Shown piece after piece: positions 16,210 to 20,134 of a stretch of 40,893 bases of DNA (the stretch's first letter is position 1; every line of letters begins with the position of its first letter). The translations under genes were made by a program, and so were the position numbers. A model generated the notes under the pieces. It searched no databases. It saw nothing but the letters and a program-made list of their open reading frames with translations, and was not told the DNA's origin. Origin of the DNA: Gammaproteobacteria bacterium (GTDB taxonomy: Bacteria; Pseudomonadota; Gammaproteobacteria; Steroidobacterales; Steroidobacteraceae); the NCBI GenBank assembly GCA_003132425.1, contig PKXS01000105.1, positions 15,896 through 56,788 on the forward strand. The letters are read 5' to 3'.

Positions 16210-18684
16210 CTAGAATAGCGGCTTGTCGCCGTCGTTCATGGGATTGGCGTTATTCGACCCGTCGTAAACTTCAGCCTTGGGCAGCGTACCTTCGATAAAT
16301 TTCTCCATGATGCCGTTGGGGTCGTCTGCGCTCGCCAGCAAACCCGTGTCCGGGGCAATGCGCACCGTGACGATGCCGTCCGGCATCGGGAACATATGCT
16401 TTGGAGCGCCGGCAAGGGCCTCGTGCATGAAATATACCCAAGTCGGGAGCGCCACATGAGCGCCTTCCTCGCCGGCGCCCAGCGAGCGATCCTGGTCGAA
16501 ACCGGTCCAGACAGTGGTCACGAGATCGCCGTTGAAGCCTGAAAACCAGGCATCGTGTTGATCCGTGGTGGTGCCGGTCTTGCCTGCGATGTCGTCGCGA
16601 TTGAGCACGCGGGCACCCATTCCGGTGCCGTGGCGAATGACATCCTGCATCATGTCCGCCAACAAATAGGCCACTTGCGGCCTGATGATCTGCGGCGCGA
16701 GATCTTTCGCCGGAATCACGGATTTGCCGTCATGCGCAGCCTGGTCGAGTTGTGCCGAACGAGCGCCCGCGACGTTCTTAGCATCGCCGCCCGGCGCCCC
16801 TGCGGCGGCCGGGTCGGTGGCGCGGCCGCACTCGAAGCAGGCCAGCGCCGGTTCGGCCTGAAACACGGTCTTGCCGCTCGAATCTTCGATCCGGTCTATG
16901 TAGTAGGGCGTGACGCGAAAGCCGCCGTTCGCGAACGTGGCGTAGCCGATGGCAACTTGCAACGGGCTCAATTCGGCAGTGCCCAGAGCCAATGTCAGAT
17001 CGTCGGGTAGCTGCGATTTATCGAACCCAAAGCGAGTCACATAATTCCGCGCGTATTCGGCGCCGATGTCGCGCATCAGGCGCACCGATACCAAGTTCAG
17101 GGAATGCGCCAGCGCCTCGCGCAAGCGGACAGGGCCGAAGAACCGGTTGTCATTTTCCTTCGGCCGCCACGATAGATCCGCGTCGGTTTCGTCGACCACG
17201 ATGGGGGCGTCCATGACCACGCTTGCCGGCGTGTATCCCTTGTCGAATGCGGCCGAGTATATGAACGGCTTGAAGCCAGAGCCGGGTTGACGCCTGGCCT
17301 GAGTCACACGATTGAACTTGCTTTGGAAGAAATCGAAGCCGCCGATCAGGGCCGCCACCGCGCCGTCCTTCGGGTCCACCGACACCAGAGCGCTCTGCGC
17401 TTCCGGGACCTGCACAAACAGCAGCGAGTCGGCCGTGGTCCCCACCGTGTAGATCACGTCGCCGCGACTCAGGATTTCAGATGCTTGGGAGGGTGCGCGA
17501 TCGACCTTCTCGTCGGGTAATTCACGCCTTGCCCAGGACAGCTTTTCCCAGGGCAGGTTCACCTCGCCCAAATCCTTGACGTAGATCTTGGCGCTTTTCG
17601 CCTCGACCTCTTGCACGATGGCGGGTTTTAAGCCGCCGATGATCGGGAATTCGTCGAGCGCGGCGGCGAAGTCCGCCGCCGTGGTGATTTTCGACATATC
17701 GAGCTTCGCCGTCGCGCCTCGCCAGCCGTGGCGGCGATCGTATTTCAACAACCCCGTCCTCAAGGCCACGGTGGCGTCTGCCTGCAGGCGCGAATCGATG
17801 GTCGTGAAGACCTTGTAGCCGGCCGTGTACACGACGTCGCCGTACTTGGCCTGCATCGCGTTGCGCACCATTTCGGCGACGTAAGGGGCATCCACCTCGA
17901 TCATGGGTCCGTGCAGCCGCGACTCCATCGGGCTATCCTTCGCCTCGTCGTATTCGGCTTGCGTGATGTAGTGCAGATCCAGCATTCGTCCCAAGACATG
18001 GGCACGCCGGGTCTTCGCCGCCTCGGCACTGGCAACCGGGTTGACCACCGACGGTGCCGTCGGAATCCCCGCCAGCGTCGCCATTTCGGCGATGCTCAGT
18101 TGGTCCAGGCTCTTGCCGAAATAAACCTCCGCCGCCGCGCCCACGCCATAGGCGCGTTGACCCAGGAATATCTTGTTGACGTATAGCGAGAAAATCTCTT
18201 CTTTGGTGAATTCGGTCTCCATTAGCAACGAGATGTAGATCTCGCTCATCTTGCGCTTCATGTCGCGCCGCGGCGTCAGAAACATATCGCGCGCCACTTG
18301 CATGGTGATGGTGCTGGCCCCTTGGCGGATGCCGCCGGCCCGCGCATTGGCCAATGCGGCGCGCAAAATGCCCTGCCAATCCACTCCGTGATGGCTGAAA
18401 AAGCGGTCATCCTCGGTCGCCAAAAACGCCTGAATCAGCTTTTTGGGGATCTGGTCGTAGCGCACCGGTATGCGGCGCTGCTCGCCGATTGCGGCCATCA
18501 ATTTGCCGTCCCGGGTGTAGACGCGCAAAGGCACCTGCAGCTGCACGTCTCGAAGCGTGTCCACCTCAGGCAGTGCCGGCTTCAAATAGACATAAGCGCA
18601 CACATTGGCGAAGACAAGCAGCGCGATTGCACCAACAAAGGCGATACAAATGCGCGATATGAGAACTAGGTAACGTTTGGACAC
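16210..18684 (-). CDS. mrcA: Penicillin-binding protein 1A (bifunctional transglycosylase/transpeptidase)
   Basis: 824 aa; ATEDDRFFSHHGVDWQGILRAALANARAGGIRQGASTITMQVARDMFL (GT51), RQPGSGFKPFIYSAAFDKG (SxxK region), AGKTGTTTDQHDAWFSGFNGDLVTTVW (KTG); divergent from pilM. Confidence 0.97.
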   Translation of the reverse strand: MSKRYLVLISRICIAFVGAIALLVFANVCAYVYLKPALPEVDTLRDVQLQVPLRVYTRDGKLMAAIGEQRRIPVRYDQIPKKLIQAFLATEDDRFFSHHGVDWQGILRAALANARAGGIRQGASTITMQVARDMFLTPRRDMKRKMSEIYISLLMETEFTKEEIFSLYVNKIFLGQRAYGVGAAAEVYFGKSLDQLSIAEMATLAGIPTAPSVVNPVASAEAAKTRRAHVLGRMLDLHYITQAEYDEAKDSPMESRLHGPMIEVDAPYVAEMVRNAMQAKYGDVVYTAGYKVFTTIDSRLQADATVALRTGLLKYDRRHGWRGATAKLDMSKITTAADFAAALDEFPIIGGLKPAIVQEVEAKSAKIYVKDLGEVNLPWEKLSWARRELPDEKVDRAPSQASEILSRGDVIYTVGTTADSLLFVQVPEAQSALVSVDPKDGAVAALIGGFDFFQSKFNRVTQARRQPGSGFKPFIYSAAFDKGYTPASVVMDAPIVVDETDADLSWRPKENDNRFFGPVRLREALAHSLNLVSVRLMRDIGAEYARNYVTRFGFDKSQLPDDLTLALGTAELSPLQVAIGYATFANGGFRVTPYYIDRIEDSSGKTVFQAEPALACFECGRATDPAAAGAPGGDAKNVAGARSAQLDQAAHDGKSVIPAKDLAPQIIRPQVAYLLADMMQDVIRHGTGMGARVLNRDDIAGKTGTTTDQHDAWFSGFNGDLVTTVWTGFDQDRSLGAGEEGAHVALPTWVYFMHEALAGAPKHMFPMPDGIVTVRIAPDTGLLASADDPNGIMEKFIEGTLPKAEVYDGSNNANPMNDGDKPLF

Positions 18685-18703
18685 TTAAAACCGCTCTAAC
18701 TTA

Positions 18704-18732
18704 TTGCACCGGCGGAAGTGGGCATGCATATT
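18704..18732 (+). promoter_or_regulatory. Candidate sigma70-type promoter of the riboswitch-pil transcript
   Basis: TTGCAC (18704-18709)-N17-CATATT (18727-18732); a start site about 7 nt downstream would fall at about 18739, the 5' edge of the aptamer. Weak hexamers, supported mainly by position. Confidence 0.35.
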
Positions 18733-18738
18733 ACCGCC

Positions 18739-18826
18739 GGTTACATGGGCATACTCATCGAAAGATGAGGACGCAAAGCCACCGGTCTAAGGGGTTCAAA
18801 GCCTAGGACAGCGGGGTTGCCAGACC
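18739..18826 (+). ncRNA. c-di-GMP-I (GEMM-I) riboswitch aptamer upstream of pilM
   Basis: GGTTACATGGGCATA-CTCATC-GAAA-GATGAG-GACGCAAAGCC-ACCGGTCTAAG...CCTAGGACAGCGGGGTTGCC-AGACC. Matches the Vc2-type GEMM-I consensus: GGGCAnA junction, hairpin capped by GAAA, GACGCAAAGCC, CTAA tetraloop receptor-like, AGCGGGGTTnCC. Confidence 0.93.
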
Positions 18827-18840
18827 AAGCTTAACCAATC

Positions 18841-18863
18841 TCGCCTAATTAGAGCATAGGCGA
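18841..18863 (+). promoter_or_regulatory. Expression-platform hairpin directly 3' of the aptamer
   Basis: Perfect 7-bp inverted repeat TCGCCTA-attagagca-TAGGCGA abutting AAGAGG, a Shine-Dalgarno-like sequence. Confidence 0.55.
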
Positions 18864-18873
18864 AGAGGTCTGA

Positions 18874-18966
18874 ATGGATGAACGCCTTCCTCGATATCGC
18901 TACGAAACCTTCGTACGTCTCACTTTGCCGGCCGCGCACCTATCCGGCGGTGATTACCGTGAGTAG
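18874..18966 (+). CDS. Putative 30-aa leader ORF between riboswitch and pilM
   Basis: ATG at 18874 preceded by AAGAGG; translation MDERLPRYRYETFVRLTLPAAHLSGGDYRE*. Too short for the track; no homology evidence. Confidence 0.35.
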   Translation: MDERLPRYRYETFVRLTLPAAHLSGGDYRE

Positions 18967-19069
18967 CTTCACGTTCTATTTAACAGTTTCTTGCTAAGTT
19001 TGCTCGCCCTAAGCTAATCTCGAGCACCAGTTTCGGCCCCCAAGGTACTGAGCGAAAAAGGAAAAATCT

Positions 19070-20134
19070 GTGTGGTCGTTTGCCAAAAGATATCGTCCGC
19101 TCTTGGGACTTGACATAACCACCTCGTCGGTGAAGCTAATAGAGCTGACCATGTCGGGGGGGCAGTATCGCGTTGAGTCGTATGCGGCGGAGCCGACGCC
19201 GCACAACGCGATCAATGAAAAGGCAATCGTGGACGCGGAAGCGGTCGGTGAGGCGATTCGGCGCGCAGTGAAGCGCTCCGGCGCGAAAAGCCGTCTCGCT
19301 GCAATCGCCATCAGCGGCGACGCTGCGATCACGAAGGTCATTCAAATGCCTAAAAATCTAGGCGAAAACGAATTGGAAGGCCAGGTCGAGATGCAGGCGG
19401 ACCAATACATTCCGTTTCCGATGGAAGAGGTCAGTTACGACTATCAAGTCGTGGGTCCCTCCGAGAAGGATCCGGAAATGCTGGACGTGCTGTTGGTTGC
19501 GACCCGCACCGAGAACGTCGAGCAGCGGCAAGCGGCCGTCCAAGCCTCGGGCCTTACCGCGCATATCGTCGACGTGGAGGCATTTGCACTCGAAAACGCC
19601 TGCGCTTTGATGCGCCACCAAATGCCGGACGGGGGCCTCGATCGGACGGTTGCGGTGGTGGATTTTGGCGCCAGCAGCACCACTTTCAGCGTGCTGCGCG
19701 ACATGAAAGTGATATATACGCGCGATTTCGCGTTCGGCGGGCAGCAGCTCACCGAAGAAATCATGCGCACCTACGGATTGAGCATGGAAGAGGCGGGCCG
19801 CGCCAAGAAGGAAGGCGGCCTGCCGAGCAACTACCAGCCCGAGGTGCTCGATCCGTTCATCGATGACATGACGCAGCAGGTCAGTCGTTCGCTGCAGTTT
19901 TACCTGGCTTCCGGCAGCGGCCGCTCGCAGCCCGATCAGATATTGATTTGCGGCGGTTGCGCCAACATATCCGGCGTCGCGGAAGTCATTTCGAGCCGCG
20001 TAGGCGTGCCCGCCGATCGGGGCGATCCCCTCGGCAACATGAAGGTATCGTCGAAAGCGAAAGCACAAGCAGTGGCGCGAGACGCCACTGCGCTATTAAC
20101 AGCCTGCGGCCTCGCGCTGCGCAGCTTCGATTAA
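19070..20134 (+). CDS. pilM: Type IV pilus assembly ATPase-like protein PilM
   Basis: LLGLDITTSSVKLIELTMSGGQYRVESYA ... VVDFGASSTTFSVLRD ... ILICGGCANISGVAEVI; GTG start, AAGGAA RBS; first gene of pilMNOPQ. Confidence 0.96.
   Translation: MWSFAKRYRPLLGLDITTSSVKLIELTMSGGQYRVESYAAEPTPHNAINEKAIVDAEAVGEAIRRAVKRSGAKSRLAAIAISGDAAITKVIQMPKNLGENELEGQVEMQADQYIPFPMEEVSYDYQVVGPSEKDPEMLDVLLVATRTENVEQRQAAVQASGLTAHIVDVEAFALENACALMRHQMPDGGLDRTVAVVDFGASSTTFSVLRDMKVIYTRDFAFGGQQLTEEIMRTYGLSMEEAGRAKKEGGLPSNYQPEVLDPFIDDMTQQVSRSLQFYLASGSGRSQPDQILICGGCANISGVAEVISSRVGVPADRGDPLGNMKVSSKAKAQAVARDATALLTACGLALRSFD

Follow-up and report, generated by a model that had tools for sequence, protein, structure and literature searches.

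The region analyzed here (the window) is a stretch of 40,893 nucleotides from a contig assigned to the gammaproteobacterial family Steroidobacteraceae. On its forward strand it carries the type IV pilus operon pilMNOPQ, in which the PilM, PilN, PilO, PilP and PilQ secretin domains were all confirmed by Pfam; genes for shikimate kinase and dehydroquinate synthase follow 3' of pilQ on the same strand. Upstream of the operon, also on the same strand, lies a c-di-GMP-I aptamer with a promoter-like motif of its own (P1); it ends about 245 nt before the pilM start codon, a GTG at 19070. The initial annotation had described a riboswitch in front of pilMNOPQ; the Pfam results confirm these genes, and the arrangement is kept across the lineage. 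The features discussed below are the following (P1 and P2 denote promoters, unless a helix or stem is named).

16210..18684 (-): class A penicillin-binding protein gene (mrcA/ponA), divergent; Transglycosylase, PCB_OB and Transpeptidase domains
18704..18732 (+): candidate promoter P1, sigma70-type; -35 TTGCAC 18704-18709, 17 nt, -10 CATATT 18727-18732
18738..18824 (+): c-di-GMP-I (GEMM-I) aptamer; RF01051, 82.2 bits, full length
18821..18872 (+): stem X hairpin, candidate switching helix; CAGACC 18821-18826 pairs with GGTCTG 18867-18872
18865..18997 (+): uncertain short upstream ORF; GAGG 18865-18868 inside stem X, two candidate ATGs
18880..18959 (+): C-rich, G-poor spacer between stem X and P2; putative Rho-utilisation stretch
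18958..18973 (+): predicted CRP/Vfr-type palindrome CGTGA-N6-TCACG; GTGA-N6-TCAC pattern
18979..19020 (+): putative P2 core; TTTAACAGTTTCTTGCTA 18979-18996, then TAATCT 19015-19020
19070..20134 (+): pilM, first gene of pilMNOPQ (operon to 24020); PF11104, E 5.9e-126

We searched the whole window with cmscan and Rfam 15. At the gathering threshold, the only family found was RF01051 (c-di-GMP-I), with a single match at 18738-18824 (+) that scored 82.2 bits (E 7.5e-15), against a cut-off of 35 bits. A rescan of 18600-19300 at a permissive E-value gave RF01051 again and no families beyond its clan. The alignment is gap-free over model positions 1-87 of 87, and thus full length, so that the equivalents of G20 and A47 can be assigned to G18748 (model position 11) and A18775 (model position 38); the C92 equivalent is 18820 or 18821, one of two adjacent Cs. 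The sequence GGGCATA occupies 18747-18753, and the hairpin CTCATC-GAAA-GATGAG (the P2 stem of the aptamer) 18754-18769, with its GAAA tetraloop at 18760-18763. Further aptamer motifs are GACGCAAAGCC, which begins at 18770, CCGGTCTAAG, and AGCGGGGTTGCC, which ends at 18821. All motifs quoted in the initial annotation are therefore present, and its coordinates for the aptamer were 1-2 bases off. An A at the G20 position defines the cGAMP (GEMM-Ib) type. The window does not have this Geobacter-type feature: since the residue is G18748, not A, and A47 is kept, c-di-GMP is favoured as the ligand, in agreement with the class and preference originally proposed.

The aptamer shows some peculiarities. 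Its GAAA loop is present, but the tetraloop receptor strand in P3 reads CTAGGA, against the consensus CTATGA, and close relatives diverge further; with this altered receptor, affinity or docking may differ from those of Vc2. Across the window's genus the receptor (window 18788-18808; leaders L033, L036 and L037) is altered or replaced, while the GAAA loop is retained. We also considered the canonical P1 helix of the aptamer (CCGG/CCAG), and rejected it: 85.7% of it is paired, yet this is no better than in shuffled sequences, and the window has a C-A mismatch. The same genome has 26 GGDEF matches, and two more RF01051 matches above the cut-off (72.1 and 39.3 bits), each immediately upstream of another gene. 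These two additional GEMM-I aptamers (L002:1501-1594 (-) and L003:1501-1581 (-)) are followed one by a FAD-linked-oxidase-like frame and the other by a lipoprotein-like frame broken by Ns; in contrast to the pilM aptamer, both have their downstream gene nearby.

Using PilM, we collected 80 relatives with 81-97% identity; close relatives come from MAGs of soil, bog and sediment that bear the label Gammaproteobacteria or Steroidobacteraceae. A sequence pattern located the aptamer at the same place in 58 of 79 readable pilM leaders, the window counted in. A covariance scan of 20 of the remaining loci added L087 and L108 (47.3 bits), and in L041 a run of Ns cuts through the aptamer position, so that some of the apparent absences are not real. 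There are nonetheless clear losses in the window's genus: the aptamer has a decayed P3 in L035, is truncated in L039, and is deleted in L045 and L051. On the PilM tree, its presence and absence require 12-13 changes. Among 114 gammaproteobacterial genomes of other genera (the window's genome not counted), 15 contained RF01051 and none had it adjoining an identifiable pilM, this gene being fragmentary or unclear in four (G079, G090, G117 and G129). Within the order, matching of coordinates showed a patchy association: aptamer and pilM are paired in most of the 22 genomes of the same genus, as well as in G023, G026, G027 and G033, and are not paired in G030, G034 and G038, among others. Two genomes of the order, G030 and G033, have an unusual expansion of RF01051, with 21 and 15 matches. 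In the open-licence literature we found no description of a pilM c-di-GMP riboswitch in this lineage, and nothing for Steroidobacter together with riboswitch.

Transcription from P1 is expected to start near 18739, at the very beginning of the aptamer, leaving little of the 5' strand of the aptamer P1 helix. Of 57 aptamer-bearing pilM leaders, 48 contain the P1 pattern, TTG-N3-N16..18-[CT]AT-N2-T, against 1.7% of shuffled leaders; the P1 -10 ends 36-39 nt upstream of the aptamer core GACGCAAAG; in more distant relatives it takes the form TTGCGC-N17-CATAGT. In a generic promoter consensus scan, the P1 of the window fell below threshold. A cultured relative, Povalibacter uvarum DSM 26723 (L112), has a similar layout with the aptamer core and a CRP-type box, but the P1 pattern had no match there. 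The four loci of the genus that lack the aptamer (L035, L039, L045 and L051) retain P1, which suggests that transcription from P1 matters to the operon. An inverted repeat, CCGGCGG ... CCGCCGG (window 18709-18741), flanks the P1 -10 and is partly conserved in the genus; it is a possible operator.

The most conserved block of the leader begins 112 nt upstream of pilM, and consists of the CRP-type box followed by TTTAACAGTTTCTTGCTA. The pattern GTGA-N6-TCAC, with up to 2 mismatches and within 180 nt of pilM, was present in 76 of 79 leaders. Its half-sites are nearly invariant and its central six bases variable, as expected for binding by a protein of the CRP family. The block is also found in the four aptamer-less loci named above and in loci of other genera that have no aptamer. 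In relatives outside the genus it runs on to an extended -10, TGnTATATA; of the 49 leaders where this -10 is recognisable, 44 have the box centred at -41.5 (the -10 being taken as -12 to -7). A CRP palindrome centred at -41.5 is the class II CRP arrangement, and a box near -61.5 is at the class I position. The P2 core of the window's genus has diverged from TGnTATATA, which leaves its -10 uncertain; the core could be read as a -35 TTGCTA, 18 nt and a -10 TAATCT, which would place the box at about -61.5.

Genome-wide, CGTGA-N6-TCACG occurs at 8 sites, versus 1 for the reversed pattern. Elsewhere in the genome the P2 core had only one weak match, and we therefore claim no P2 regulon. The sole match to PF00325 (Crp-type HTH) in the genome is a protein of 259 aa (L113). 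Among PDB entries, this protein is most similar to Vfr and E. coli CRP (E ~1e-73); Xanthomonas CLP (3iwz) is lower, at 6e-61. Xanthomonas Clp is a CRP relative that responds to c-di-GMP; it was discarded as a model for the P2 regulator, the Crp-type protein of this genome being closer to Vfr and CRP. We also discarded the possibility that the P2 block is a coding signal, as its would-be silent positions are invariant and the changes to it in relatives outside the genus disrupt the frame. Conservation and geometry suggest binding by CRP/Vfr and activity of P2. We found nothing in open-licence papers on a riboswitch with an internal promoter. In many leaders outside the genus (within L058-L104), the final 40 nt upstream of pilM contain a hairpin, TTTTCAGG-N8-CCTGAAAAGGAAA, which adjoins the pilM ribosome-binding site; the window does not have it.

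We did not find an intrinsic terminator between the aptamer and pilM in the window, where the sole hairpin-plus-T match was the CRP palindrome with a T-rich stretch; nor did we notice any, by eye, in the spacers of the relatives. The leader thus has no recognised expression platform: the terminator is missing, the pilM start is 245 nt away, and what is left is a covarying helix. This helix, stem X, is the only structure downstream of the aptamer with comparative support. Among 14 distinct sequences from the genus, 96.4% of its cells are paired, versus 10-46% in slid versions, and 5 cells are changed on both sides, with A-U to G-C and C-G to U-A exchanges; its covariation score was equalled by 1 of 500 shuffles. 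The 3' strands were placed through a multiple alignment and a consensus motif, and the position in L043 was shifted by eye. Since the loops do not align outside the genus, stem X was judged there by anchored duplex energies, whose mean z was -1.29 in the genus and -0.85 elsewhere, which suggests a counterpart in many of the outside leaders. The thermodynamic fold of the entire leader was no better than shuffled (z -0.92), and did not cleanly show either the aptamer or stem X. The first base of stem X is the final C of the GCC of the aptamer, and competition with the ligand-bound closure is therefore to be expected; this competition between helices is likely the switch.

As to how the switch would be read, the short ORF overlapping stem X could start at ATG 18874 (30 codons, stop 18964-18966) or at ATG 18878 (39 codons, stop 18995-18997). 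The window's subclade has 11 members, and in each of them stem X includes GAGG (GGG in one) in its 3' strand, 4-12 nt upstream of an ATG. In all 11, a frame remains uninterrupted as far as the P2 block, versus 6.9 expected given the ATG; the product of the open-frame probabilities is 0.004 if the sequences are taken as independent, which they are not. A conserved leader peptide was rejected, as the peptide is not conserved, and frames and sequences differ between relatives. The spacer that follows has 23 C and 12 G at 18880-18939. C exceeds G in this spacer in 42 of 54 aptamer-bearing leaders, but on average not in aptamer-less ones, a contrast that within the genus has a Mann-Whitney p of 0.012, on related sequences. 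From these features, ligand binding would free the GAGG, the short ORF would be translated, Rho would be kept off, and the P1 RNA would reach pilM. Such a readout, in which Rho and possibly the short ORF mediate an activating effect of the ligand on P1 read-through, is the one that we favour, but tentatively, and at well short of an even chance. The sister subclade has neither the short ORF nor its start codon, so that a short-ORF readout cannot be general.

The leader holds an aptamer, two conserved promoter-like blocks and a covarying helix, and the aptamer has been lost recurrently. We consider that this is best explained, with a probability of roughly 70%, by a c-di-GMP-I riboswitch acting on P1 transcripts, combined with a CRP/Vfr-type promoter, P2, that would make riboswitch-free pilM mRNA. 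P1 would give rise to a long leader that opens with the aptamer, and transcription from P1 presumably reads through into pilM. Bound ligand would hold the last Cs of the aptamer, at the ligand-pairing position, and so disfavour stem X, and the readout would decide whether P1 transcripts reach pilMNOPQ in usable form. P2, lying downstream of the aptamer, would yield pilM mRNA without it. The operon would then have two inputs, c-di-GMP through the P1 mRNA and cAMP-CRP/Vfr through P2. As P2 transcripts would not carry the aptamer, the riboswitch is confined to P1 transcripts if P2 is active; judging from conservation and geometry, it probably governs only part of the transcripts of the operon. 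The initial annotation had placed the whole operon under RNA-level control, which is too strong a claim, since the conserved CRP-type block between the aptamer and pilM would bypass the aptamer, and the loci that lost the aptamer still keep both P1 and P2. A more specific form of the two-promoter reading, a built-in bypass in which c-di-GMP gates the P1 mRNA only, cAMP-CRP/Vfr drives riboswitch-free P2 mRNA, and the helix controls translation of the short ORF and so the access of Rho, seems doubtful to us.

Control of essentially all pilMNOPQ mRNA would be regained if P1 were the main promoter and the P2 block were no promoter in this genus, that is, with a conventional leader riboswitch. The aptamer is indeed kept upstream of pilM in most leaders (58 of 79), and P1 is well formed, whereas the -10 of P2 is not obvious in the window's genus. 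However, no other part of the leader is as conserved as the P2 block, which outlasts the loss of the aptamer and has class II CRP geometry in relatives, and neither a terminator nor the pilM start is near the aptamer; we thus regard this arrangement as unlikely. At the opposite end, the target of the riboswitch could be a short RNA made from P1, or the upstream ORF itself, with pilM scarcely affected and pilMNOPQ driven by P2. Such a division of labour would fit the proximity of P2 to pilM, the repeated loss of the aptamer while pilM and P2 remain, and the ORF that is open in 11 of 11 subclade members with its GAGG inside stem X. But the peptide is unconserved, its frame shifts among relatives, the sister subclade has no start codon, and P1 is kept at aptamer-less loci, suggesting that its transcription matters to the operon; we find it quite improbable.

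The ligand could also be 3',3'-cGAMP instead of c-di-GMP. The GEMM RNA upstream of pilM in Geobacter metallireducens, the only biochemically studied pilM GEMM that we found, senses cGAMP, and the G20 position is a selectivity factor and not a hard filter (PMC9262584). Given the G rather than A at this position in the window, we hold this to be very unlikely, and c-di-GMP remains the ligand in the reading that we prefer.

With respect to known systems, the window resembles Vc2 of Vibrio cholerae and RF01051 in its full-length aptamer, GAAA tetraloop, G20, A47 and GCC. It differs in the receptor strand (CTAGGA, not CTATGA), in the unsupported P1 helix, and in a platform that is neither an intrinsic terminator nor located at the pilM start. 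The initial annotation had cited Geobacter for GEMM RNAs upstream of pil genes; a pilM case does exist there, but it is a cGAMP sensor, an ON switch that works through a terminator, and binding is lost once a downstream strand captures the ligand-pairing C (PMC9262584). Both systems have a GEMM aptamer before a pilM-led pilus operon and a downstream strand that captures, or in the window would capture, the ligand-pairing C, but the window has G20, no terminator, and an intervening putative second promoter. In Vc1-gbpA of Vibrio cholerae, CRP drives the promoter of the gene that bears the riboswitch leader (PMC4744006, PMC4545359). One gene is there, as in our reading, under both a c-di-GMP-I riboswitch and cAMP-CRP; in the window, in contrast, the CRP-type promoter would lie downstream of the aptamer and bypass it, and a CRP-type promoter behind the aptamer sets it apart from both the Geobacter pilM switch and Vc1-gbpA. 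Bc1-mcpE of Bacillus thuringiensis shares with the window a c-di-GMP-I aptamer, a long leader, of up to 220 nt in Bc1-mcpE, and a predicted transcription-factor site within the leader; Bc1-mcpE, however, contains two intrinsic terminators, and the authors of that study observed no alternative promoter within its leader (PMC11218506).

In this locus, an RNA of a known class occurs in a new gene context and with an unusual promoter architecture. The RNA itself is ordinary, and what stands out is the two-promoter architecture together with the repeated loss of the aptamer. The recurrent losses, with both promoters kept, provide natural comparisons for the contribution of the riboswitch, and the locus cautions against assuming, from a good aptamer upstream of an operon, that every mRNA of that operon carries it. 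In this gammaproteobacterial lineage, c-di-GMP would be connected, at the level of RNA, with the alignment and secretin genes of the type IV pilus, with a riboswitch and a CRP-type promoter stacked in one leader, so that one input could bypass the other. If the bypass reading is true, a single pilus operon receives two second-messenger inputs, each through a transcript of its own.
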